From Gammaproteobacteria bacterium (GTDB lineage: Bacteria > Pseudomonadota > Gammaproteobacteria > BMS3Bbin11), in contig JAADJE010000034.1 in NCBI GenBank assembly GCA_013150915.1, positions 1 through 55,258 of the forward strand: a DNA stretch of 55,258 nt, read 5' to 3'. A program made the translations under genes and the position numbers. Below are positions 4,419 to 53,561 of this stretch, piece by piece; position 1 is the first letter of the stretch; every line of letters begins with the position of its first letter. The notes under the pieces were generated by a model. It searched no databases and was not told the DNA's origin. It worked only from the letters and a program-made list of their open reading frames with translations.

Positions 4419-4449
4419 GTCTGATTAATTTAAGTGCCGTGTTTAGATT

Positions 4450-4609
4450 AAGGAAGCTGATCAACTCATGAACGCGTATCTTACGCCTAAAATATCCAGT
4501 TTTTCGTTGCAAGCTTTCACAGTCGCTTGTTATTACGTACGATTTACGCCTCAAACCTGAATATATTAGATCGCAATCTATCTCGCTCAGAATTTATCAG
4601 AGCTTCCCC
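4450..4609 (-). mobile_element. Miniature inverted-repeat element, ~160 bp, copy 1
   Basis: The ends are inverted copies: AGGAAGCTGATCAACTC on the left, and GGGGAAGCTCTGATAAATTC when the right end is read on the minus strand. Read on the minus strand, this element aligns over nearly its full length with the element at 53124-53283 read on the plus strand. Shared blocks include ACGTAATAAC, AAAAACTGGATATTTT and GTTCATGA. It also carries the start of a short plus-strand ORF beginning MNAYLTPKISSFS, like the ORF in the other copy. There is no transposase. It separates the tRNA terminator from ppiD. Confidence 0.65.
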
Positions 4610-4611
4610 AA

Positions 4612-4652
4612 ATTAAAAAGGGCAAATCCTGCCGGATTTACCCTGTTTTTAT
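4612..4652 (-). terminator. Intrinsic terminator after tRNA-Asp
   Basis: An 11-bp stem with one mismatch (arms 4619-4629 and 4634-4644) is followed on the minus strand by a T-rich run. It closes the hupB - tRNA-Val - tRNA-Asp transcript. T-rich sequence on the plus-strand side too means it could act in both directions. Confidence 0.75.
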
Positions 4653-24553: not shown

Positions 24554-24960
24554 TTACCCAGGATCATTTTTAGTCCACCCGACAACATAGCCGAATTCAC
24601 ATGACGCCAATCCCATTAATATCATAATCGTACCGGCCGTAATTTGCAGGCCAAGGGGCTCATCATTCAGATATTTCCCGGGCAATAATGCCACAACCGG
24701 TGTTGGCAAGGTCAATAAAGACAGCCGTGTGACACTAATATACTTAAATATAGAAAAAAAGAACAAATCCTGTCACCGAGCCGAAAAATGCCAGGCACGG
24801 AATGGATGTTCCAGCACGAGTAACAATTACCCCGGTAATAGCACCATCAATCAAAGAGTAGCTTAAGGGCATAGCAAACATAAGTCCTGTCGCAATAATA
24901 GTCAATGCAGGCAGGCACTGGTATGACCCGTTTTGAATCAAAATATGACATAATCAAAAT
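24554..24960 (-). pseudogene. Decayed EamA/DMT-family transporter
   Basis: Two overlapping minus-strand frames (24744-24941 and 24554-24766) encode consecutive pieces of the C-terminal half of an EamA drug/metabolite transporter. The first ends GFVLFFYI; the second continues FKYISVTRLSLLTL with PVVALLPGKYLNDEPLG and a last membrane helix. The frame changes at a run of seven A (24752-24758, plus strand). The upstream part carries further stops and lacks the N-terminal half, so this is a remnant. It lies between two c-di-GMP genes. Confidence 0.7.
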
Positions 24961-31605: not shown

Positions 31606-31670
31606 ACGCTAATGTCCATTTCTTTTTTTATTTGTTTGTGAACACAACTCACCCATAAAGGACAAACCCA

Positions 31671-33473
31671 TCACCCAGGATAAAGGGGCTCTAATGCATC
31701 CTGGGTCGGCTTTTCCTTTACCCTGAAAACCAGACCATTTCTGAACTTTTCGTAGAAGCTCTGCCCATCCCAGTTGACAGCATCAGTTGAATAAAGAAAT
31801 CTGTCCAACTGAATTATTTCCTCACCGCCCTGATCCAGTATGGCCGCCAGTGCCGGCAGTGTTTTCGGTGGGTTTTCCAGTATTACAAGCCCGGACATTT
31901 GCAACAGTATTTCTGCCACAGCACTTGCATCATTCCCACTGCAAGATTCACGTAAACGTTTCTGTAACGCACGCTGATTTAGTTTACGTGCCAGTTGGAA
32001 TTCATCGGCAACAGGCATATCCTGAGGCTTATCGGGTCGCTTGTTCCATCGCCAGTACAGTGCAAAAATCACAACGGCTATAATTGGCAGCAACAACCAA
32101 TATTCCTTCCGTATTTTGTTGAACCAGCCTGTCTCCAATAGGCTGTCATCGACACCCACGCCTTCTGGTGCGGGGGAATCTGTCTGCGGCCCCGTCACTG
32201 TCAAGCCCTCTGCCTGTACCACAGGTTCAACAGGCAAGTCTTTGCCGGGCAGTACCTCCACACTCCATTTCGGCAATACGGCCGTACGCTCTACCCCCGC
32301 CTCGGTATCCCACCAGTTTAATCTCAATTCAGGGATAAGCAGTGCGCCTGCCTTTGTCGGCATATAACTCACGCCCTGTTTACTGATACCGTATACCCAG
32401 GTTCCATCAGTACGGGTTTCCGTCACAGGCTGTTCCGGGTATACATTAACACCGTCAAGCGCATCCAGTTCTAGCGTTGGCAGCAGGGTTGCCAGCAGAC
32501 CTTTTGCCCGAATGGTAATGGTGCGGCTGACGGGTTCGCCAACTTTAAATTCCGGTGGCTGTTCGAGCCAGCTATCTTTTAATTTCAGTTCTGCCGATGG
32601 CAACCAGTTGCTGCCCGAGTATGAGGCTGGACGCGGCAGAATCTGCAGACTTAGCGCTCTACCCTGTACCGTAACGGGTCTTCCGCGATTAAAAACACCG
32701 GCAAAGGGATCTCCGCCAAAAAAACGTTGCAGGTTCGGGTCTATGCGGGAAGACTGCCGTCTACCTGCAGCATTGCTGACCAGACTGCCAGTAAAACGTA
32801 ATGGCGGAATAATTAATTCGCCGCTTTTTTCAGGAAAGATCGCATAGTGGCGCTCAATAACCGTAACTGACTTTCCGTTGCGTTGCCGGGTATAGCGGTT
32901 ATTCTTAACCAGCTGCTCAACGAGCGCATTTTCGGGTGCAGGCTCACTCAGGTTCCCGTCCAGTATTGGCTGATCAAAAACCAGGCGCACGGTGTAGAGT
33001 ATTTGCTGCTGCAGGTAAATCGGCTTTTCAGACGAGCCGATTTCAGTCTCTATAAAAATGTGTTGCCCATCCATGACAGTGGCTGCCACAGGTGGCGCTG
33101 AAACTGTCACCTGTATCGGGTTTGTCAGCTCCCTGCCTACTCTCAATGGCGGGATATGGAACTGACCGCGGGTTTTTGGCTGCAGGGTAATAGTCCACGA
33201 TGTTTTTGCCGTCGTTACGCCATTGATAATCTGCACCTGCTGACTGCTACCGGTGCCCAGCACATAAAAATCTTTCTCCAGCAGAGATAAATCCGGCATC
33301 TCACGCCGTTTGGCATCGCTGCTGATGACCAGGGTAAAACTCTCACCGTCATAGATGACAGGCCTGTCGATGCTCGCCTGTACAGATGCCATACCCGTAG
33401 GAGGCATGGGCAGCAGAGCTAGCAGGATTAGCAGCTGAAACAGTGTGTGTTTAAATGGATAAACCCTGTTCAT
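31671..33473 (-). CDS. batD: BatD-like protein (aerotolerance operon)
   Basis: The protein is about 600 residues from the ATG at 33473, which begins a clear signal peptide (HTLFQLLILLALLPMPPTGMA). The open frame runs further upstream to 33581 but would overlap the TPR gene. BatD proteins have tandem beta-rich periplasmic domains (here VQASIDRPVIYDGESFTLVI and repeats to about residue 430), one membrane helix (about 455-475, YWLLLPIIAVVIFALYW) and a cytoplasmic tail. It is last in the moxR-bat operon, 13 bases after the TPR part. Its exact role, linked to envelope stress and oxygen tolerance, is unsettled. Confidence 0.88.
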   Translation of the reverse strand: MNRVYPFKHTLFQLLILLALLPMPPTGMASVQASIDRPVIYDGESFTLVISSDAKRREMPDLSLLEKDFYVLGTGSSQQVQIINGVTTAKTSWTITLQPKTRGQFHIPPLRVGRELTNPIQVTVSAPPVAATVMDGQHIFIETEIGSSEKPIYLQQQILYTVRLVFDQPILDGNLSEPAPENALVEQLVKNNRYTRQRNGKSVTVIERHYAIFPEKSGELIIPPLRFTGSLVSNAAGRRQSSRIDPNLQRFFGGDPFAGVFNRGRPVTVQGRALSLQILPRPASYSGSNWLPSAELKLKDSWLEQPPEFKVGEPVSRTITIRAKGLLATLLPTLELDALDGVNVYPEQPVTETRTDGTWVYGISKQGVSYMPTKAGALLIPELRLNWWDTEAGVERTAVLPKWSVEVLPGKDLPVEPVVQAEGLTVTGPQTDSPAPEGVGVDDSLLETGWFNKIRKEYWLLLPIIAVVIFALYWRWNKRPDKPQDMPVADEFQLARKLNQRALQKRLRESCSGNDASAVAEILLQMSGLVILENPPKTLPALAAILDQGGEEIIQLDRFLYSTDAVNWDGQSFYEKFRNGLVFRVKEKPTQDALEPLYPG

Positions 33474-33486
33474 CGTTACGTCATCG

Positions 33487-34620
33487 TCACCATGGCTGAG
33501 GGTCAGCGGGCTTACCGGCATTACCGCCACGCTGAATATACTGATAACGTAATTTTCGGCGCAACAAGCCCGCCGGGTCATCCGGAATCCGCCGCAACCA
33601 CTGTTCGGCCGCGATTTTCTCTTCAGAACTCAAGTCTTCAGCCTCGGCAACTGTTCCTGACTTTTCTTGCTGATCGCCCTCTCTGTCCTGCTGAGACGCC
33701 TGTGGTTGAGCGACTGGCCGCTGATCTTCCTCGGCCCCATTCTCACCATTATTTTCTTCCTCCTGCTTAGCTGTCAGCGCTTCCTGCTGCCCAGGGTCTT
33801 CGCCTGCTGCATCCTTTCTGGCTTGTTCTGCAGCCTCAGAAAAGGCGTTTTTATTGTCTTTTTCTTTGTCTCTTGCAGAACCCGTTTTGTCCTCTGCCTG
33901 CTGCTGATTTTGCCCCCCCTCTGCAGCTTCTGATTCCTTTCTCTGCTGGCCTTTATCGCCCTGCTGATTGTTTTTGTCTTGCTGATCCTGCCCGCCCTGC
34001 TGATCTTTGTTGCCCTGCTTACCCTGTTGGTTTTGTTCCTCTTGCTTCTGCTGCTGCAACAATTTCTTCACAGCCTCCCGGTTATACTCAGCATCTTCCA
34101 TACCGGGCTGGCCTTTCAATGCCTGATCGTAGGCATCGATCGCTTCCTGCAATTTGCCAAGTTTTGCCAGTGCATTGCCCTTATTGTAGGCCGCTTCCGC
34201 ACCGCCAGATGAAGAGAAATCTTCCACTGCTGCCTCGTAATCACCCTTGCGATAATCTGCTACACCTTTGCGCAGAGGATCCTTCGCCAGCGCTGATGCC
34301 CGCTCAGCCTCACCGGCAAGCAGGGCCTTATGCGCCTGTTGATCCTGGCGCTGCCACAGATCCATCATGCTGAATGCCAATGCCGGTTCATTCGGTATGG
34401 CAGTTAAAACAAGCAGACAAACACTCAGCAACCAGCCACGTCGGAATGCCAGTGCCGCCAGCGGCAGCAGCAGGATAACCAGCCAGGGTCCGGTTTCTTT
34501 CCATCGGACAGTCTCAAAAGTACCCTTTTCTACGCGATTACGTGAACCCTTGACACGCGTTTTCATTAGACGGTTGATATCCGCGTCGCCGGCAGAGAGG
34601 CTGACATAGTTACCCCCCCC
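33487..34620 (-). CDS. BatB C-terminal end fused to TPR (BatC-like) region, out of frame with its 5' part
   Basis: This frame continues the VWA protein encoded at 34610-35419. It begins with GGGNYVSLSAGDADINRL, the normal continuation of a BatB VWA domain. A membrane helix follows (WLVILLLPLAALAF...), then TPR repeats (AEAAYNKGNALAKLGKLQEAIDAY) and a long Gln/Glu/Lys/Asn-rich low-complexity tail. VWA-TPR fusions of about 640 residues are usual in gammaproteobacteria. Here the two parts are split by one base in a run of nine C (plus strand 34613-34621). Either the gene is broken, the run is a sequencing error, or slippage restores the frame. Confidence 0.8.
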   Translation of the reverse strand, partial: GGGNYVSLSAGDADINRLMKTRVKGSRNRVEKGTFETVRWKETGPWLVILLLPLAALAFRRGWLLSVCLLVLTAIPNEPALAFSMMDLWQRQDQQAHKALLAGEAERASALAKDPLRKGVADYRKGDYEAAVEDFSSSGGAEAAYNKGNALAKLGKLQEAIDAYDQALKGQPGMEDAEYNREAVKKLLQQQKQEEQNQQGKQGNKDQQGGQDQQDKNNQQGDKGQQRKESEAAEGGQNQQQAEDKTGSARDKEKDNKNAFSEAAEQARKDAAGEDPGQQEALTAKQEEENNGENGAEEDQRPVAQPQASQQDREGDQQEKSGTVAEAEDLSSEEKIAAEQWLRRIPDDPAGLLRRKLRYQYIQRGGNAGKPADPQPW

Positions 34621-35419
34621 CTGCGTTGGCAAGTTTTTGCATCGCCGATTTATCAAGTCGGGTGGTAATCACATCCCCATCACTGTCACGAAAAAACCCA
34701 CCCTGCCCGGTCGGTAAAGGAGCACCCTGCTCAGTCCCTATTCCCAACACGGAGGTAATAAACCCCTGTTTGCGAAGTTTCTTTGCCGCCTCTAGGGTAC
34801 GATCATCGGTATAGGAATCAGCCAGTAACAGAATCTCTCCCCGTAATCGTCCCGCCTGCCGCAGGAGTTCTGCCGCCTTCAGCAAAGCCAGATCCGCCCG
34901 GCTGCCCTGTACCGGCATGATCCCGGGTTTCAGTGCCGGTAACATGACGCTGATGGTGCCGGTATCGCGTGTTAACGGTGATACCACAAAGGCATCTCCG
35001 GCAAATATCACCAGGCCGATGACACCTTCCTGCTGTTTTTTCAGTATATCGGAAACTTTAAATCGGGCACGCTCAATACGGCTCGGTTTGAGGTCGCTAC
35101 TGTTCATGGAGCGTGATAGATCCAGCACGATGACACGCGCCTGATCCGTTTGAAATACCGGTTGCGGAAGCTTCTCCCATACTGGGTTTGCCAGTGCGAC
35201 AACGGCGATTAACCAACCTGCAGACAGCAGCCACAGAGGCAGACGATTACGGGCGCCAGCCTTCGACACACGTAGCCATGTCAACAGATTTTTATCTATA
35301 ATCTTGAACCAGGCGTCATTCGCACCGTGATCCTGTCTCATCAACAGGCCGAGTACCGCGACTAAAGGGAGCAACAGATAAAACCACTGCGGCTGTAAAA
35401 ATTGAAAATTCTCAGGCAT
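34610..35419 (-). CDS. batB: BatB VWA domain, 5' part of a frameshifted VWA-TPR gene
   Basis: The first part (269 residues) has a membrane helix near the N-terminus (FYLLLPLVAVLGLLM), a second near residue 60-80 (LLSAGWLIAVVALANPVW) and a von Willebrand A domain with the metal-site motif DLSRSMNSS. It stops at a TAA right after NAGGG, in a run of nine G. Removing one G gives NAGGGNYVSL, the expected family sequence, in frame with the TPR part (33487-34620). It starts inside the end of batA (8-base overlap). Confidence 0.85.
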   Translation of the reverse strand: MPENFQFLQPQWFYLLLPLVAVLGLLMRQDHGANDAWFKIIDKNLLTWLRVSKAGARNRLPLWLLSAGWLIAVVALANPVWEKLPQPVFQTDQARVIVLDLSRSMNSSDLKPSRIERARFKVSDILKKQQEGVIGLVIFAGDAFVVSPLTRDTGTISVMLPALKPGIMPVQGSRADLALLKAAELLRQAGRLRGEILLLADSYTDDRTLEAAKKLRKQGFITSVLGIGTEQGAPLPTGQGGFFRDSDGDVITTRLDKSAMQKLANAGGG

Positions 35420-36425
35420 GTCTTGCCCTGCTACGACTGAGAAGACTAAAAAAAGGCAGTTTGGACAAAGCCAGCAGTAAAGAGAGAAGCATCGCTATAG
35501 ATAATGGCCAGAAATAGAGTTCGTTGATCGGCCGGTAGACTTCCACGTCATCCGCTATCGGCTCTATCTCATCGAGCAGGCCGTATATTTGCAGCAGTGA
35601 TTTGACATCTCTGGCACGGTAGTAATGCCCACCCGTCTTGTCGGAGATGGCCTGTAATGTCTCTTCATCGATGTCAGAATTGACCGCTCGCTGCCGGCCA
35701 AACAAATCCCTTACAACACGGCTGTCAGCACCTACACCAATAGTATAAATTCTTATTTTTTCCTGCGCCGCAAGATCAGCGGCCTTCAGCGGGTCGATGC
35801 TGCCTGCTGTATTACTGCCGTCCGTCAACAGTATCAGGACGCGATTTTGTTCCGGCTCATTGCGCAGACGTTTGACCGCCAGACCAATGGCATCACCAAT
35901 GGCTGTTTTCTTCCCTGCCAGGCCTATCACAGACTCCTGTAGCAGCGTATTTACAGTCTTTCTGTCCAGCGTTAACGGGGCCTGCAGGTAGGCCCTGTCA
36001 CCAAACAGAATCAGGCCGAGACGATCACCAACACGTCTATCGATAAACTCTCCTGCTACGGCCTTGACCGCTGCCAGGCGCGATACCCGCCGATTCCCAA
36101 TTACCATATCATCGGCTTCCATACTGCCGGAAAGGTCGACGGCAAGCATCAGATTCCTGCCCTGTACCGGCAATTGAATCGCTTCATCAACAGACTGTGG
36201 CCGGGCGGCGGAAACCACCAGTAGCCCCCAGATGATAAGGGCAACAAAAAGGCGAACACGAGATGGCCCACTGGCTTCGTGCAACAGCTGAGAATGCATG
36301 GCGGCATAAAAGGGTACACGGATGGTGGAAATCTGTGCCGCATCCACCCTCGGCAGCAACAGCATGACCAATACCGGTAAGGGCAATAGTAGAAACATCC
36401 ACGGTAATGAAAAATTGATATCCAT
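35412..36425 (-). CDS. batA: BatA-like VWA-domain membrane protein
   Basis: The 337-residue protein has membrane helices at about residues 7-25 and 58-78 and near the C-terminus (about 308-328), around a periplasmic or cytoplasmic VWA domain. The metal-ion site is complete: AVDLSGSMEADD, TAIGDAI and LLTDGSNTAGS. VWA proteins in MoxR operons are thought to be remodelled by the MoxR ATPase. It starts nine bases after the DUF4381 gene and overlaps batB, so the operon is tightly packed. Confidence 0.92.
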   Translation of the reverse strand: MDINFSLPWMFLLLPLPVLVMLLLPRVDAAQISTIRVPFYAAMHSQLLHEASGPSRVRLFVALIIWGLLVVSAARPQSVDEAIQLPVQGRNLMLAVDLSGSMEADDMVIGNRRVSRLAAVKAVAGEFIDRRVGDRLGLILFGDRAYLQAPLTLDRKTVNTLLQESVIGLAGKKTAIGDAIGLAVKRLRNEPEQNRVLILLTDGSNTAGSIDPLKAADLAAQEKIRIYTIGVGADSRVVRDLFGRQRAVNSDIDEETLQAISDKTGGHYYRARDVKSLLQIYGLLDEIEPIADDVEVYRPINELYFWPLSIAMLLSLLLALSKLPFFSLLSRSRARHA

Positions 36426-36433
36426 TGTTGTCG

Positions 36434-36919
36434 CTATCTCTGAATTACACCTGTGTTTCGTTTAATCCATTTCTTTGCCAGCAACAACAAGCCATGCTGA
36501 TCCACAGTGCTGTTACGTGTATAGGCTCCGGCCTCCAGTACGCAGCCCACCCCATTAACAAACTGCCCCTCTCCACCCTGTGCATCCAGAAAAGACAGCC
36601 AGTCTTTTCCCGTCAACGGCGCCACTTTATTGCGCGGATATTTCAGTAGGGCCACTCGCCGCAGCAGCGTTGACACCGATGCCAAAAATACCGGAATTTG
36701 GTCATCAGGTTCCGTTTTTGACAAATCATTCAGTAGCCGGAATATTTCTCGCTGTAGGCTTTTACGGCGCCAGAAACTGATTAGACGAACACCTATCCAG
36801 ATCAGGCTCACAGCGGCAAGCAGAGCAACTATCCACCAGCCGGGCGCCGGTGGCCAGAAATCAGGACTGGCAGGTAGATGAACGTCCCTAAGCTGTAGAG
36901 TTTGCTCAACAGGATTCAT
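36434..36919 (-). CDS. DUF4381 membrane protein of the MoxR operon
   Basis: The 161-residue protein starts with a short proline-rich segment (LRDVHLPASPDFWPPAPGWW), has one membrane helix at about residues 27-47 and a helical cytoplasmic part. This is the DUF4381 layout found between DUF58 and VWA genes in proteobacterial moxR operons. The start overlaps the DUF58 stop by four bases (ATGA). The function is unknown; a helper for the VWA complex is the usual guess. Confidence 0.85.
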   Translation of the reverse strand: MNPVEQTLQLRDVHLPASPDFWPPAPGWWIVALLAAVSLIWIGVRLISFWRRKSLQREIFRLLNDLSKTEPDDQIPVFLASVSTLLRRVALLKYPRNKVAPLTGKDWLSFLDAQGGEGQFVNGVGCVLEAGAYTRNSTVDQHGLLLLAKKWIKRNTGVIQR

Positions 36920-37689
36920 GCCGCCACCTGGCCTGACACAGTTGCACTATTATTAGGGTTCGCCATAAAGCGGCGTAAAGCCATCGCGGCATCATCAGCA
37001 GTCGATAAACGCAGCAAAGGAATAGCCCGCTTGCGCATTACGTCGCTTACCGTCGAGTCATGTTCAACACACCATTCTTCATAACGCATCCGTTGTATGC
37101 GGTTACGGGTATCAATTATGGCAGTCTGCTGACCGTCACTGACCCCGTAAACACCCGCCGGTGGTGGAGATAGCTCAATCGGGTCAAACAACTGGATGGC
37201 GACCACATCGTTATGCTGACGTAACCTCAACAGCTGGGCCGAGGTCTCTTCCGTCACATGATAAAAGTCACTGAGGATGAAAATCAGACTGCCGGGCTTT
37301 GCTACCCGCCGACAGCGCTTCAACGCACTATCAAGACCCGGCCTGTCGGGATTGCCTAAATGTTCCAGTGCAGACTGCATGCCTTTCACGGGGTCTGTCG
37401 CCGCCATCAGCAGCCGAAATAAGCGCAAGGCACCTTTTGCCCCCCCGGATGGGGGCACCTCCTGGTGCCTGCCATTAAATACCAGCGCCCCAATACGGTC
37501 ACCGTTTGCCACACCAGCCCATGCGATCAGTGCCGCCAGACGCGCTGCCTGCACTGACTTGAACGCTCCTCGAGTACCAAAAAACATGCCGGGATTGAGG
37601 TCAATCAGCAGCATTATCGGACGTTCACGTTCTTCTTCATACATCTTCACGTAGGGGTGACCGGCGCGGGCGGTTACCCGCCAGTCCAT
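36916..37689 (-). CDS. DUF58 protein, 3' part of a frameshifted gene
   Basis: This frame carries the conserved core of DUF58: DWRVTARAGHPYVKMYEEERERP, then a VWA-like region (IMLLIDLNPGMFFGT, FILSDFYHV). It lacks the N-terminal part, which is in another frame just upstream (37674-37952). In intact homologues the joint reads YQPGDDVRSMDWRV. Here one G is missing in CACCGG (about 37706-37709), so the residues GDDVRS are lost from both frames. The start at 37689 is therefore not a natural start. Confidence 0.8.
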   Translation of the reverse strand: MDWRVTARAGHPYVKMYEEERERPIMLLIDLNPGMFFGTRGAFKSVQAARLAALIAWAGVANGDRIGALVFNGRHQEVPPSGGAKGALRLFRLLMAATDPVKGMQSALEHLGNPDRPGLDSALKRCRRVAKPGSLIFILSDFYHVTEETSAQLLRLRQHNDVVAIQLFDPIELSPPPAGVYGVSDGQQTAIIDTRNRIQRMRYEEWCVEHDSTVSDVMRKRAIPLLRLSTADDAAMALRRFMANPNNSATVSGQVAA

Positions 37690-37952
37690 GCTGCGAACAT
37701 CATCACCGGCTGGTAGGCTCGGGACTCCTGGTAATCCATGCCACGGCCACGAAAACGAGAGGTATGCGCACCGGTAATGGAACTGTTTTTTACCCGGGTG
37801 GACGTCAGACGGATACCCCGTATGGCGGCCTTCAATGCAATCAGTTCATCAATACTGACCGCCACACCTGATCGCGTGGCCGGGTATTTTCGCTTTGCAT
37901 CAATAGGCGATTTTTCGCCAAAACCCAGTCTTTTCCAAATTCCCTGCAACAT
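37674..37952 (-). CDS. DUF58 protein, 5' part of a frameshifted gene
   Basis: The first about 80 residues are normal DUF58 N-terminal sequence (ELIALKAAIRGI, then HTSRFRGRGMDYQESRAYQP). After YQP the frame goes wrong (VMMFAAWTGG) because of the apparent one-base deletion, and soon stops. The ATG at 37952 overlaps the moxR stop as TGATG, showing translational coupling with moxR. It should be read together with 36916-37689 as one gene of about 345 codons. Confidence 0.8.
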   Translation of the reverse strand: MLQGIWKRLGFGEKSPIDAKRKYPATRSGVAVSIDELIALKAAIRGIRLTSTRVKNSSITGAHTSRFRGRGMDYQESRAYQPVMMFAAWTGG

Positions 37953-38974
37953 CAGGAAACCGGCACCCGCCTCACTAATTCAGCAATAAAATCATCAGAA
38001 GACACACCTTCTGCCTCAGCCTCAAAAGAAAGCAGCACACGATGCCGCATTACATTATGAATAACGGCCTGTACATCTTCAGGTGAAACATAATCGCGCT
38101 GCTGCAACCACGCGTGTGCCCGCGCACAGCGATCCAGGGCAATGGTACCGCGGGGACTGGCGCCATAATTTACCCAGCCTGTAAGGTCATCACCATAGGG
38201 TTCTGGTTTTCGGCTGGCCATCACCAATTGTACAAGATAATCCTCAACGGCCTCTGCCATATGCAAATCAAGCACCTCGTTTTGTGCCTGTCGGATTTGA
38301 TCTTTAGTCAGAACCACATTCACGGCAGAATGCTTGCCCGTCTCAAGCCTTGCCTGTTCCTTCGCCAGAGCAAGAATCTGTTTTTCTGAATCCGCTGCCG
38401 GATAATCGATACTGATATGCATCAGGAAACGGTCAAGCTGGGCTTCAGGCAGTGGGTAAGTCCCTTCCTGTTCAATTGGATTCTGTGTGGCCATTACCAG
38501 GAAAGGCCGATCCAGTTTATAGGTCGTCTGCCCCACGGTAACCTGGTGCTCACCCATGGCCTCAAGCAATGCAGATTGCACCTTGGCAGGCGCACGATTG
38601 ATCTCGTCGGCAAGTAATAAATTATGGAAAATCGGCCCACGCTGAAAGTTAAACTCGCCGGTTTGCGGCCGATAAATCTCGGTACCGGTCAGATCACCGG
38701 GCAATAAATCAGGGGTAAACTGTAGTCGGTGAAAATCACCCTCTATGCGTGCTCCCAACTCCTTGATAGCCGTCGTCTTGGCCAGACCCGGTGCACCTTC
38801 TACCAGCAGATGACCATCTGCCAGCAAGGCAATCAGCAGGCTATCAACCATTGATTCCTGCCCTATAATCTTTTCCTGCAGTTGCCTACGTAGCTGGTGA
38901 AACGATGTGTAAGCGGTTATCGCATCCGCTGAAGCAGCCGTAATATTTTCCTGCGATACCAGTTGTGAATCCAT
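37952..38974 (-). CDS. moxR: MoxR-family AAA+ ATPase
   Basis: A 340-residue cytoplasmic AAA+ chaperone that heads the operon. Walker A EGAPGLAKTT is at about residues 58-67, followed by FTPDLLPGDLTGTEIY, Walker B LLADEINRAPAKVQSALLEAM and the sensor motif ATQNPIEQEGTYPLPEAQLDRF. These identify the MoxR family, which is thought to insert cofactors or remodel VWA-domain partners. It is followed in the same direction by DUF58, DUF4381, batA, batB-TPR and batD, all with overlaps or short gaps. Confidence 0.96.
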   Translation of the reverse strand: MDSQLVSQENITAASADAITAYTSFHQLRRQLQEKIIGQESMVDSLLIALLADGHLLVEGAPGLAKTTAIKELGARIEGDFHRLQFTPDLLPGDLTGTEIYRPQTGEFNFQRGPIFHNLLLADEINRAPAKVQSALLEAMGEHQVTVGQTTYKLDRPFLVMATQNPIEQEGTYPLPEAQLDRFLMHISIDYPAADSEKQILALAKEQARLETGKHSAVNVVLTKDQIRQAQNEVLDLHMAEAVEDYLVQLVMASRKPEPYGDDLTGWVNYGASPRGTIALDRCARAHAWLQQRDYVSPEDVQAVIHNVMRHRVLLSFEAEAEGVSSDDFIAELVRRVPVS

Positions 38975-39304
38975 CTCTATTTGCTCCTGTTTCTGAAACA
39001 GCCATTATGACCTGAACAGTCCGCTTTTGTCCCATTCTTTCAGGTATTCCGTTTACGACTGTTTACGGGCTTCGATTGAGAATTCAAGGCATCGGTACTA
39101 AAAGGCAGTTTAATTTTTTTTGTAGGCGCGTCGTCTCGGCACAATTATTTTGGAAATCACGGCGTCAGACTCGACAGAAAATACTTCCATCGAGTCTGAG
39201 TCTGGCCCCGAAGGTTCAATCAGGCAATAAAAACCCACCGAAGTGGGCTTGGTAAACCTTGTACAGATTTCTTTCTACCCTATTAACTGCTCTGTCTTTG
39301 AAAT
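38975..39304. other. Intergenic region with inverted repeat, upstream of moxR
   Basis: The 330 bases contain a perfect inverted repeat TCAGACTCGA / TCGAGTCTGA (39165-39174 and 39190-39199, 15-base loop) without a T run, and the ltrA terminator at 39226-39250. The inverted repeat could be an operator for moxR or just a hairpin. No gene is seen. Confidence 0.35.
39226..39250 (-). terminator. Intrinsic terminator downstream of ltrA
   Basis: On the minus strand AAGCCCAC-TTCG-GTGGGTTT is followed by TTATTG. The stem is perfect with the very stable TTCG tetraloop. It lies about 55 bases after the ltrA stop. Confidence 0.85.
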
Positions 39305-40684: not shown

Positions 40685-41338
40685 TTATTTGCTTTTGAAA
40701 CCAGCCGCTACATGACTACCGTCACAAAAAGGCTTGTTCTCAGAAGCACCGCATCGACATAAGGCTACTTCTGTTCCCTGCCAGGCAACCCGGCCACTAC
40801 TGTTTTTGATGGTAAGGTTACCGGAGAGTAACAGCGGACCATCTTCCAGTGGGGTGATTTTTAATTTCCCGCCTTTCTTTGTGAGGCCTTCACCCTTCTC
40901 ACCAACCGCACCATAATCCCTGAAACCAATTGCCTCGTGGCTATTATCACAGAATGGTTTATTTTTTGAGTGACCACAGCGACACAGCGCAACTCTGAAT
41001 GCAACACCCTCCATGTCATCGGCTGAGCCTTCAATATCAAGTTCACCTCGAACAAAATAAGGGCCGTTGTAGCTGACCGATACACTATTTTCCTGATCCG
41101 GGCTCTCTTTAACTGTTTTCACGCTGGTTTCATAGGTCAATGCACCACTTGGGCACCGCTCCACGACATCAATCACATCTTCTAAGGTAACAAGATCAGG
41201 TTGACACCAGGGCTGGCGTCCAGCAATGAATAAGTCACCTTTTGCGTGCCCACATTCTGCGATATGAATACAGAGGCGCCCATCCCATTCAACATTAATT
41301 TTAGTTCCGGGAAAGATATATCTTTCATTTTCACTCAT
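40685..41338 (-). CDS. Iron-sulfur protein with divergent ferredoxin domain and two CDGSH domains
   Basis: The 217-residue protein begins with a divergent 4Fe-4S mono-cluster domain (about residues 10-70, Cys in RLCIHIAECGHA, PWCQPD and VERCPSGAL). Two CDGSH iron-sulfur motifs follow: CRCGHSKNKPFCDNSH near 119-134 and CRCGASENKPFCDGSH near 193-208. CDGSH clusters are 2Fe-2S bound by three Cys and one His. This is a soluble electron-transfer or redox-sensing protein. The stop lies one base from a miniature element. Confidence 0.9.
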   Translation of the reverse strand: MSENERYIFPGTKINVEWDGRLCIHIAECGHAKGDLFIAGRQPWCQPDLVTLEDVIDVVERCPSGALTYETSVKTVKESPDQENSVSVSYNGPYFVRGELDIEGSADDMEGVAFRVALCRCGHSKNKPFCDNSHEAIGFRDYGAVGEKGEGLTKKGGKLKITPLEDGPLLLSGNLTIKNSSGRVAWQGTEVALCRCGASENKPFCDGSHVAAGFKSK

Positions 41339-41658
41339 GTTCTACTTCTCCTTATTCAAGTTTTTTATAATCTCTCTAGTACATGCTCCCGAGGTAAATC
41401 ACTCGGGGAAATCAAACACCCGCGCGACACAGTTCTCGGTACCAGTGAACTCAACGATGTCAACCTCTCTCAGTGTAACACCATCCCCTTCACCCAATAA
41501 ATAAAGGGGGGGGGTCAGGCCTATTTTACAATGTAAAAGACATCAGGGTATTCTGTGATTTGCTTATTTTATCCCCAAAGTCTCGAAAATAATCTTATCC
41601 CTTCTTGTTTCCCCTCGAAGCCTACATCCTCTATGGCAGGCATCTTGGGTTCCTGACC
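41339..41658. other. Intergenic region with REP-like sequence and G9 run
   Basis: Contains the inverted repeat CCCGAG...CTCGGG (about 41390-41407) ahead of the CDGSH gene, a run of nine G at 41506-41514 followed by GTCAGGC, and a palindrome TTTTACAATGTAAAA (about 41523-41537). The GGGGTCAGG context recalls REP-like repeats of gammaproteobacteria. No gene or clear terminator was found. Confidence 0.35.
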
Positions 41659-44600
41659 TTACCCCAGCCAAACCCGGGCATTTCTAAACAAGCGCATCCA
41701 GCCACTGTCTTCACCCCAGTCTTCGGGGTGCCAGGAGTTGGCAACGGTACGAAATACCCGCTCAGGATGCGGCATCATCACGGTGAAGCGGCCATCTTCC
41801 GTCGTCAGTCCTGCAATACCTTGCGGTGAGCCGTTTGGATTCGCTGGGTACTTCTCTGTTTTTACGCCATAATTATCGACAAAGTGTATGGCTATAATGG
41901 CATTTTGTTGATTCTTATACGTCGCAAACTCCGCTCGTCCCTCGCTGTGTGCGACAGCAATTGGCAGGGTAGAACCTGCCATGCCTGACATGAAGATGGA
42001 TGGGCTCTCGGGGATACTGACCAGCGTGCTGCGTGCCTCGAACTGTTCGGATTGATTGCTAACAAAACGTGGCCAGTTTTCAGCACCCGGAATGATGTCT
42101 TTTAAAGATGCCATCATCTGACAGCCATTACAGACGCCCAGTGCAAAGCTGTTTTCCCGCTCAAAGAAAAGGCTGAATACATCGCGTGCCTGGTCATTAT
42201 AGAGAATCGACTTTGCCCAGCCGCCACCGGCGCCGAGCACATCACCATAGGAGAAACCGCCACATGCGACCAGTCCCTGGACTGATTCCAGCGTTTCACG
42301 ACCACTTAAAATATCACTCATGGTGATATCTACGGCATCGAAACCGGCGCGATCGAAGGCCGCTGCCATCTCCAGTTGCGAGTTAATGCCCTGCTCTCGC
42401 AAGATGGCCATTTGCGGGCGGTTACCGCTGTTGATATAAGGCAGGCTGACATCTTCGGATGGATCAAAGCTAAGGTCGGCATGTAATCCCGGGTCTTTCT
42501 GATCCAGCAGTTGATCAAATTCCTGTCGGGCATTTTCAGGATTATCACGCAGCGTTTGCATGCGCATACTGGTCTCACTCCAGACACGATGGAACTCCGT
42601 ACGTGAACCATGCAGGCAGACCTTGCCTGCCTGAGAGAATGTTATTTCATCACCCGCTACCGGGGTACCAATGACGTGTGCACATTCAGACAGACCAGCA
42701 CCGGCAAACACGGACAGGACGTTTTCCAGATCGCTGCGACGAATCTGCAGTGTGGCACCCAGCTCTTCATTGAAGAGGATATTCACTACCTTGTTGCCTA
42801 ATGTATCCAGTGAAACCGTAAGCCCACAATGCCCGGAAAAGGCCATCTCTAGCAGACAGGCAAATAAACCACCATCGGAACGATCGTGGTAGGCTAGCAA
42901 CACACCGTCTTCATTGAGACTTTGTATGGCGCTGAAAAAACTGCTCATATCAGCCGCCTGATCAAGATCTGGACACTCATTTCCCAGTTCACCGTAAACC
43001 TGTGCCAGGCAGGAGCCACCCATACGATCACGTCCACGACCGAGATCAATGAAGATCAGGTCTGTTTCACCCTGATCAAGTATCAGTTGTGGGGTCATCG
43101 TTTTACGCACATCCAGCACGGGTGCAAAAGCGGAAATAATTACTGACAACGGTGCAGTAACAGAATGCTGCTCGCCCTGATGCTGCCAGACTGTGCGCAT
43201 AGACATGGAATCCTTGCCAACCGGAATTGATAGACCCAGTGCCGGACATAGCGCCATACCGATACTCTGTACGGTATCAAACAAATTGGCATCTTCACCC
43301 GGGTGACCCGCCGGTGCCATCCAGTTGGCAGAAAGTTTTATGTCGCTTATGTTTTTAATACGCGCGGCAGCAATATTTGTCAGCACCTCACCTATCGCCA
43401 TGTGGCCACTGGCAGGACCATCAATTAATGCAAGAGGGGTACGTTCTCCCACCGCCATGGCTTCACCGGTATTTTGTTTAAGATTTGTCGCCGTCACGGC
43501 CACATCCGCCACTGGCACCTGCCAGGGGCCTACCATCTGATCACGGCATACCAACCCGGTTACACTGCGGTCACCGATAGTAATCAGGAATGATTTGCTG
43601 GCAACAGTCGGCAGACGCAGCACGCGCAAGGCCGCCTCATACGGGTCGAAATTATCGGCATCAAAGGCGACTAATTCGGGTACCTTATGCTGGACATTAC
43701 GCCGCATTTTTGGTGGCTTACCCAGCAACACATCCATCGGCATATCAATTGGCCATGCCAGATCACGACAGGCTGTTGAGCTATCGGCAGACTGATCCAC
43801 TTTAGTCTGATCAACGAAATACTGATCATGCAGGCTCAGTTGACGCTTTTCTGTGGCTTTACCCACCACCGCATAGAGACATCTTTCGCGTGCGCAAATC
43901 CTTTCAAAATCTTCCCAGTAGTGATCGGCAATCGCCAGCACATAGCGTTCCTGTGATTCATTGCTCCACAGTTGCATCGGTGACATGCCCGGCTCGTCAT
44001 TTAAAATATCGCGTAGTTCAAAACTGCCCCCGCAACCTGAGTCATTCACCAACTCCGGCAAGGCATTGGACACACCCCCTGCGCCGACATCGTGGATTGA
44101 CAGGATGGGACTATCGCCAGCCTTTTCACAACAGCGGTTGATAACTTCCTGACAACGGCGCTGCATTTCAGCATTGCTGCGCTGAACAGAGGCAAAGTCG
44201 AGATCCTCGGAGCTGGTGCCGGAAGCCATGCTTGAGGCCGCACCACCGCCCAGACCGATCAGCATAGACGGGCCGCCCAGTACAACTATTCGACTGCCGT
44301 CAGGTATTTTAGATTTTTCAGTGAATCCCGCCTGTATTGAACCCAGACCACCAGCCAGCATTATCGGCTTGTGGTAGCCACGTACTTCACCGGATGGCAA
44401 TGCCTGCTCATAGCTACGGAAATAACCACAGATATTCGGCCGGCCAAATTCATTGTTAAACGATGCGGCGCCTATGGGGCCTTCGAGCATGATATCCAGC
44501 GCACTGGCAATACGCTCAGGCTTGCCATAGTCTTTCTCCCAGCTCTGCACGGCGTCCGGCAGTCTGAGATTGGAGACGCTGAACCCACAAAGCCCTGCCT

Positions 44601-45597
44601 TGGGTTTGCTGCCGCGGCCGGTTGCCCCTTCATCGCGTATCTCACCGCCCGACCCCGTCGCAGCACCAGGGTGTGGCGCAATAGCGGTCGGGTGATTATG
44701 GGTTTCCACCTTCATGAGGATATGCGCCTTAGCCTCCTGCCAGGAGTAGTGGCGGCCATCTTTATTTAGGCAGAAGTTTCCTGTTTCGTAGCCGCGGATA
44801 ACTGATGAATTATCACTGTAAGCAACGACTGTCCCCTGTGGGTGTCTTTCGTGGGTATTGCGGATCATGCCAAACAATGACTTCGACTGTTCTACACCAT
44901 CGATTATCCAGTCGGCATTAAAGATTTTGTGGCGGCAGTGTTCTGAGTTCACCTGTGCGAACATCATCAGTTCCACATCAGTCGGGTTCCTGCCCAGTTC
45001 AGTGAACGATGCAAGTAAATAATCAATCTCATCCTCTGACAGGGCAAGCCCCCACAACTGATTTGCTTCTAATAATGCGTTCTTTCCATCATTAAGCAGA
45101 TCGACACAGCGCATGCTGGCCGGACTGTGTTGTTCAAATAACAGTTCGGCCTTATCCAGCGAGCCGAACACCGATTCCACCATACGGTCGTGAATCAGCT
45201 CATGAACTGTTTCCTTTTCAGATTCACCCAGCAGGCGATGTTCTCGGGTATTGATATGCCAGACTACACCGCGTTCTATACGCTGTACTTTTTCGAGGCC
45301 ACAATGGCGGGCGATGTCTGTTGCCTTGGTAGACCAGGGTGAAATCGTTCCAGGTCTCGGGATAACCAGAAAAGGCTCACCGGGAACATCCATTTCATGG
45401 CGCGTCGGGCCATAGTCAAGAATAACGGACAAGTGATCGAGTTCACTTTCATCCAGGTCGCTGGATAATTTAACAAAATGACAATAGCTCGCCGAAAGCT
45501 CGTCCAGATCTGTAATTGTTTCCGACAGCAGACTCAACAGCTTGTTGAGTCGAAAATCGGAGATGGCCGGTGCGCCCTGCAATGACAGAAAACTCAT
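41659..45597 (-). CDS. purL: Phosphoribosylformylglycinamidine synthase
   Basis: PurL makes FGAM from FGAR, ATP and glutamine in purine biosynthesis. The 1,312-residue single-chain form, typical of proteobacteria, is complete. It has the N-terminal PurS-like region, two synthetase halves ([57 protein letters not shown]-like [11 protein letters not shown]), and a C-terminal glutaminase domain with catalytic Cys in [10 protein letters not shown] and His and Glu in [10 protein letters not shown]. It lies next to bamC and dapA with a short gap and stands in the same direction. Confidence 0.98.
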
Positions 45598-47754: not shown

Positions 47755-48019
47755 GGTGCAGTGTTTCATATTATTTGACGATTAGGCGTGACGAGAAGCT
47801 GTTAGCTACAAGGCAGGTTTCGCCGCAAATGCTTGTTCCCTTTACAAGGCGCCTAACACCGTAGATAACGGTTTCTTGTCTCGCCCGAAGGGAGACCCAC
47901 AAATGGCCCAATACGGCGTTACAGACCTTGGCAAGGGAATTGCCATTGCCTGCAAACTGCACCTTGTCTTGAACCATTTGTGAGCCTCTTAATCGTCAAA
48001 TAATATGAAACACTACACC
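47755..48019. mobile_element. 265-bp element with 30-bp terminal inverted repeats
   Basis: Left arm 47755-47784 and right arm 47990-48019 are inverted copies with a single mismatch; the inner 25 bases (47760-47784 and 47990-48014, e.g. TTTCATATTATTTGACGATT) are perfect. No transposase fits. A 68-residue frame inside (47771-47977) runs into the repeats and looks non-coding. No clear target duplication is seen. Each arm carries an outward-facing TAATAT that could serve as a -10 box toward dapA. It is of MITE type and not part of the 160-bp family. Confidence 0.7.
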
Positions 48020-53116: not shown

Positions 53117-53265
53117 CAGGCCAGGGAGTCTCTGATCAATTCTGGACGAAGCAGGTTGCAGTCTAGAATCTTCGGGTTCGAGGCACAAATCGCACGTAAT
53201 AACTGGTCATTGCGAAGGGTTACAATGGAAAAACTGGATATTTTGGGCGTAGGGTACGAGTTCAT
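53116..53265 (-). CDS. 49-codon ORF inside a miniature element, coupled to both neighbours
   Basis: The ORF starts MNSYPTPKISSFS and ends RPELIRDSLA. Its ATG overlaps the stop of the PqqD-like gene (ATGA) and its TGA overlaps the start of the HPr-kinase-like gene (TGATG). All but the last bases lie in the miniature element 53124-53283. The related element at 4450-4609 also starts an ORF with MNAYLTPKISSFS. It may be translated only to pass ribosomes to the next gene. A peptide function, such as a substrate of the PqqD-like protein, is unproven. Confidence 0.4.
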   Translation of the reverse strand: MNSYPTPKISSFSIVTLRNDQLLRAICASNPKILDCNLLRPELIRDSLA

Positions 53266-53283
53266 GAATTGATCAGAGGTTCC
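53124..53283 (+). mobile_element. Miniature inverted-repeat element, ~160 bp, copy 4
   Basis: The left end GGGAGTCTCTGATCAATTC and the right end (minus strand) GGGAACCTCTGATCAATTC match at 17 of 19 positions, and a CCA flanks each side as a possible 3-bp target duplication. The interior aligns with copy 1 (4450-4609, opposite orientation) over its length. It sits precisely between the PqqD-like and HPr-kinase-like genes and encodes the last residues of the former. Confidence 0.7.
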
Positions 53284-53561
53284 CCCATGCTTACGGCATT
53301 ATTATCAGCAAGTTTTTTCAGTGTATCCAGAATATCCTGTCGAAGACTTTCTTCATTACTGGGGTAGGCATCCTGAATCATGTTTATAATGTCTTCTATC
53401 GATTGCTCACCGTTGCAAAGCTGCCAGATGACAGATGCCGATTTGTTTATATAGAGCGTCTTGCTGTTTGTGGGATTATATAACAACACCTCATCATCCA
53501 GTTCTTCCATATGACAGGATTCATTTCTGATTGGTTTGTCATCCAGTTTTATTTCAGCCAT
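53262..53561 (-). CDS. PqqD-like peptide-binding protein
   Basis: A 99-residue protein with the PqqD fold signature: a strand region (DDEVLLYNPTNSKTLYINKSA), then IWQLCNGEQSIEDIINMIQDAYP and a C-terminal helix. PqqD-type domains bind leader peptides of ribosomally made peptides, and PqqD relatives also occur beside HprK-related kinases with no known peptide. The last residues (EPLINS) are encoded by the miniature element, so the original C-terminus may have been slightly different. It is divergent from the ABC ATPase gene, with about 100 bases between. Confidence 0.8.
   Translation of the reverse strand: MAEIKLDDKPIRNESCHMEELDDEVLLYNPTNSKTLYINKSASVIWQLCNGEQSIEDIINMIQDAYPSNEESLRQDILDTLKKLADNNAVSMGEPLINS

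Follow-up and report, generated by a model that had tools for sequence, protein, structure and literature searches.

The gene for a fused BatB-BatC protein is interrupted in this genome assembly by a frame change at a run of nine G (G9), and the break is probably an indel error of the draft consensus, judging from the sequences of relatives. This reading is favoured because the frame is intact in all of the homologous loci compared, because DUF58, in the same operon, and bamA, on another contig, are also broken, and because both halves of batB-batC are under normal selection. The organism would then most likely carry an ordinary intact MoxR-Bat operon (moxR, DUF58, DUF4381, batA, a batB-batC fusion and batD), the breaks in DUF58 and bamA would likewise be consensus indel errors, and sequencing or assembly, not the cell, would be the cause of the breaks.

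The window is the whole stretch of DNA analysed (55,258 nucleotides), and the features of the operon in it are as follows, with the supporting match or evidence in brackets.

31671..33581, minus strand, batD, intact (PF13584, 3.1e-25)
33487..34656, minus strand, TPR half (BatC-like) of batB-batC, in another frame, with a hydrophobic segment and TPR (TPR_2, 1.2e-9; NF047507 below cut-off)
34610..35419, minus strand, VWA half (BatB-like) of batB-batC, 269 aa, stop directly past the run (PF13519, 1e-13; NF047506 below cut-off)
34613..34621, minus strand, G9 run, site of the batB-batC frame change (sequence and alignment of relatives' proteins)
35412..36425, minus strand, batA (VWA), intact (PF00092, 6.8e-21)
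36434..36919, minus strand, DUF4381 gene, intact (PF14316, 6.1e-39)
36919..37707, minus strand, DUF58 gene, 3' part (PF01882, 1.3e-41)
37710..37979, minus strand, DUF58 gene, 5' part, in another frame (relatives' proteins)
37952..38974, minus strand, MoxR-type AAA ATPase gene, intact (PF07726, 1.6e-63)

The order on the minus strand is moxR, DUF58, DUF4381, batA, batB-batC and batD. A MoxR ATPase, DUF58, two VWA proteins, a TPR protein and BatD are thus encoded together (by Pfam matches and gene order), which is the gene set and order of the known Bat (Bacteroides aerotolerance) or MoxR-VWA operon with a batB-batC fusion. However, two genes are interrupted here, in the assembly, which sets this operon apart from known Bat operons. 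This genome has a second, paralogous Bat operon on contig C75. According to PMC3557215, batB and batC are fused in Leptospira biflexa, other bat fusions occur in other species, the two genes are apparently separate in pathogenic leptospires, and deletion of bat genes in L. biflexa left growth and oxidative stress tolerance without significant change.

Nine C at 34613-34621 of the plus strand form the G9 run on the coding strand of batB-batC. In alignments with proteins from five related loci, which cover both halves, the frame switch sits at this run. The original prediction, that two reading frames of one family protein meet at the run, was correct, as the VWA ORF reaches its stop after the run and the TPR region lies in another frame. 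The gene therefore has the repeat tract at the frame junction that is looked for in homopolymer phase-variable genes, and the frame break is present in the assembly.

The site of the run was compared in 29 loci (7 and 22 from two sets of homologues, duplicates included); L010/L017 and L011/L018, at least, are pairs drawn from one contig each, and L015 is this genome's own paralogue. The relatives include the draft genomes 'Arenicellales bacterium isolate MAG_Ve_Sed_16' (L018) and isolate CSMAG_2624 (L017). The frame runs unbroken past the site in 29 of the 29 loci, and none has G9 there, the longest run being G8. One distant relative (L037) has G8 at the site in an unbroken frame, and the orthologues from the same genus (in genomes G001 and G006) have mixed glycine codons. 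Retention of the tract in the orthologues of related species, another mark of phase variation, was thus not seen in any of the 29. As all of these loci read through and none has G9, the tract is, on sequence comparison, not a conserved element.

Within the genus, batB-batC is a single open frame of 678 aa in G001, 685 aa in G002 and 705 aa in G006, the copies in G002 and G006 being paralogous, and the G006 orthologue is open for 386 aa up to the contig end. The fusion is the norm in the genus. The operon itself is distributed unevenly. G001 and G006 keep it near purL, and on this basis the ancestor of the genus probably had it, with loss in some members. The orthologous operon was not found in G002 (99 % complete), which is the closest by identity among the genomes compared and ~85-90 % identical over much of the window; the nearest match to the operon found there is 55 %, on contig C25. 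The window from 31607 to 39216 is a synteny breakpoint in G002, in which the Bat region is missing and the flanks lie on different contigs (C23/C38 for sequence left of about 31607, and C7 for sequence right of about 39216). No match to the Bat operon was found in G005 (91 % complete). In G006, a single draft genome, two diverged copies of the operon were seen, each close to the end of purL (C24 and C148; L137 and L052), and these probably represent two strains binned together.

Selection was estimated as dN/dS relative to G006, and for DUF58 the values cover the 3' part only. The VWA half (batB) gave 0.10, the TPR half (batC) 0.11 over 113 codons, and the part of DUF58 that is 3' of its break 0.06-0.09. 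The intact genes gave 0.08-0.11 (batA), 0.12-0.16 (DUF4381), 0.06-0.07 (moxR) and 0.08 (purL). No stop codon was present in any range used. Both halves of batB-batC and the 3' part of DUF58 are under normal purifying selection, and the relaxed selection and further lesions of a decayed pseudogene were found in neither half of batB-batC (dN/dS ~0.1). Given the low dN/dS and the lack of stops, old decay is not supported, and the breaks are either young or reversible, or they are not real.

The original prediction did not mention that the DUF58 gene, in the same operon, is also split, at ~37707-37710. Both parts are covered by the proteins of relatives (14 relative ORFs), in which the gene is intact, and the break appears in the alignment as a single-base gap outside any long homopolymer. 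Because of it, a switch acting only at the G run would leave the operon, as sequenced, still interrupted. A further break is in bamA:

L072:5912-5930 (G000, this genome, contig C10, about 45925), bamA frame break, a 5-base gap and neighbouring mismatches relative to G002

TIGR03303 positions 1-530 are matched in one frame and positions 542-741 in a different one. The gene is single copy, and one match to its 3' half was found in the whole genome. BamA is essential in Escherichia coli, and for this reason the break is hard to believe as real biology. A break comparable to that in batB-batC is thus found in a gene that is taken to be indispensable, as would be expected of an error.

Frame breaks were sought by testing for ORFs split relative to homologues in 127.4 kb of this genome covered by relatives' ORFs (48.4 kb of the window, 9.7 kb of L046, 19.5 kb of L072, 16.2 kb of L074, 16.6 kb of L078 and 17.1 kb of L081). 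Twelve places were listed, of which four were judged to be sense breaks in conserved genes, namely batB-batC, DUF58, an EamA-like remnant and bamA. The remaining eight were judged to be antisense ORFs, gene junctions or upstream extensions. Sense breaks were told from antisense noise by eye, and the place at window 48600, where the ORFs come from one relative only, is the least certain. Applied to two relatives (140.6 kb in all), the same test gave five places in G002 (82.7 kb), none of them judged to be a real sense break in a conserved gene, and none in G001 (57.9 kb). A scan of coding potential for frame switches had been tried and gave way to this homology test, because real breaks did not stand out from ordinary gene starts in it (that of batB-batC was outside the top 22 of 68 pairs).

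The remnant is at window 24560-24920 on the minus strand, with the break near 24760. Presumably it is part of an EamA-like transporter, from the look of the sequence; it shows a 2-base gap relative to relatives at ~70 % identity and is probably a true pseudogene. At L078:16486-16938 (G000 C110), an ORF that we take to be hydroxylase-like seems to be cut short, and G002 has ~260 extra bases there.

The original prediction had offered a sequence error as the plain alternative to a switch, and it is this alternative that the broken single-copy bamA and the normal selection on both halves favour. Apparent pseudogenes that arise from assembly errors are documented in bacteria (PMC11017572). The present case resembles such spurious pseudogenes in its isolated breaks in otherwise intact, selected genes, one of them, bamA, regarded as essential; here the breaks are known from the draft consensus. 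The four breaks are of more than one kind and thus do not show a single platform error.

A serious rival to a draft error is real loss in this lineage, namely a recent inactivation of an operon that would be dispensable in the genus and in the course of being lost here, through a slip in the G run plus a small DUF58 indel, so recently that decay has not appeared elsewhere. Two of the four breaks are in the ~7.3 kb operon and two in the ~120 kb outside it; about 0.12 would be expected in the operon, and the chance of two or more there is ~0.007 (calculated by hand). Because two of the four are in one operon, real loss or locally poor assembly fits better than error spread evenly. The missing operon in the sister genome G002 makes loss plausible, and the missing match in G005 and the retention of the paralogous operon on C75 also speak for it. 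However, both halves of batB-batC and the 3' part of DUF58 have dN/dS values equal to those of intact genes, and bamA is broken on another contig. We consider real inactivation rather unlikely.

The original prediction had put forward phase variation or transcriptional slippage, with a run length that varies in the population or in transcripts, such that the full VWA-TPR protein would be made in some cells only, or at a low level. Poly-G phase-variable genes are known in Neisseria and Campylobacter, and the likeness to them is a G run of nine exactly at the frame junction; that both halves of batB-batC are still under selection also suits a switch. In contrast to those genes, the tract here is not conserved (G9 is absent from all 29 loci), the second break in the operon, in DUF58, is unrelated and lies outside such a tract, and other G9 runs occur without breaks. 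This claim is unsupported, and a switch appears improbable. Of two findings that the original prediction had named together as telling against it, intact homologues without the homopolymer were found, and decay elsewhere in the operon came to one further break, with no general decay.

Counts of long runs also lean against a switch. Runs of at least nine G or C number 13 in this genome (distinct runs in 2.65 Mb, from 16 overlapping rows) and nine (13 rows) in the sister genome G002, and are thus common in the genus. In 189 sampled ORFs, four coding G runs of at least eight were seen and ~2 were expected, and one C run of at least eight was seen and ~1.5 expected, where the expectation is from synonymous resampling with codons redrawn by genome usage. 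Coding G runs thus exceed the number expected from codon usage only slightly. In this genome, six further G9 runs fall within ORFs that have no frame break; by Pfam, four of these ORFs encode a thymidylate kinase (contig C26), an ABC ATPase (C10), a PilW-like protein and a TPR protein, and two have no Pfam match. With these six and with run counts only a little above expectation, G9 within a gene is ordinary in this genome. The run in batB-batC is, as a run, barely above chance, and the frame break itself is not shown by the family. A specific form of the switch is very improbable, in which slippage in a poly-G tract peculiar to this lineage would switch the MoxR-Bat membrane complex of an uncultured gammaproteobacterium, and the paralogous operon on C75 would supply the constant version.

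A second G9 run was seen in the window (plus strand 41506-41514), between the minus-strand ORFs 40685-41338 and 41659-45597 (purL). Elsewhere in this genome, L039 (G000:C29:21700-24700) has 11 N, either a scaffold gap or a masked stretch, just ahead of a G10 run upstream of a gene that we take to be nucleotidyltransferase-like. Very long poly-G stretches are present in G005 (C44 and C162) and G001 (C27); those of C44 and C27 stand at the beginning of the contig, and all are probably sequencing artefacts.

A natural split of the gene, giving BatB and BatC as separate proteins, would agree with the two states of these genes in leptospires (PMC3557215, as cited above) but was rejected as scarcely credible, as the stop falls inside the conserved AGGG-x-Y stretch and precedes the hydrophobic segment, which comes next but in the other frame, and those copies from the same genus that have high identity or complete contigs are fusions.

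Repeats were also seen in the window. That at 47757-48019 (~263 bp) is dispersed and is 82-88 % identical to most of the copies in G002 and G006; its ends match each other in inverted orientation, and it looks like a small mobile element. Those at 4447-4616 and 53123-53284 belong to a ~160 bp family with dozens of copies in G002, and match the same places in G002 on opposite strands.

With a draft error as the preferred reading, the case illustrates that a single homopolymer in a draft assembly can pass for a genetic switch, and that its interpretation changes once the other genes of the operon and an essential gene at another locus are examined. A switch, if true, would make the MoxR-Bat system of an environmental lineage phase-variable through a poly-G tract.
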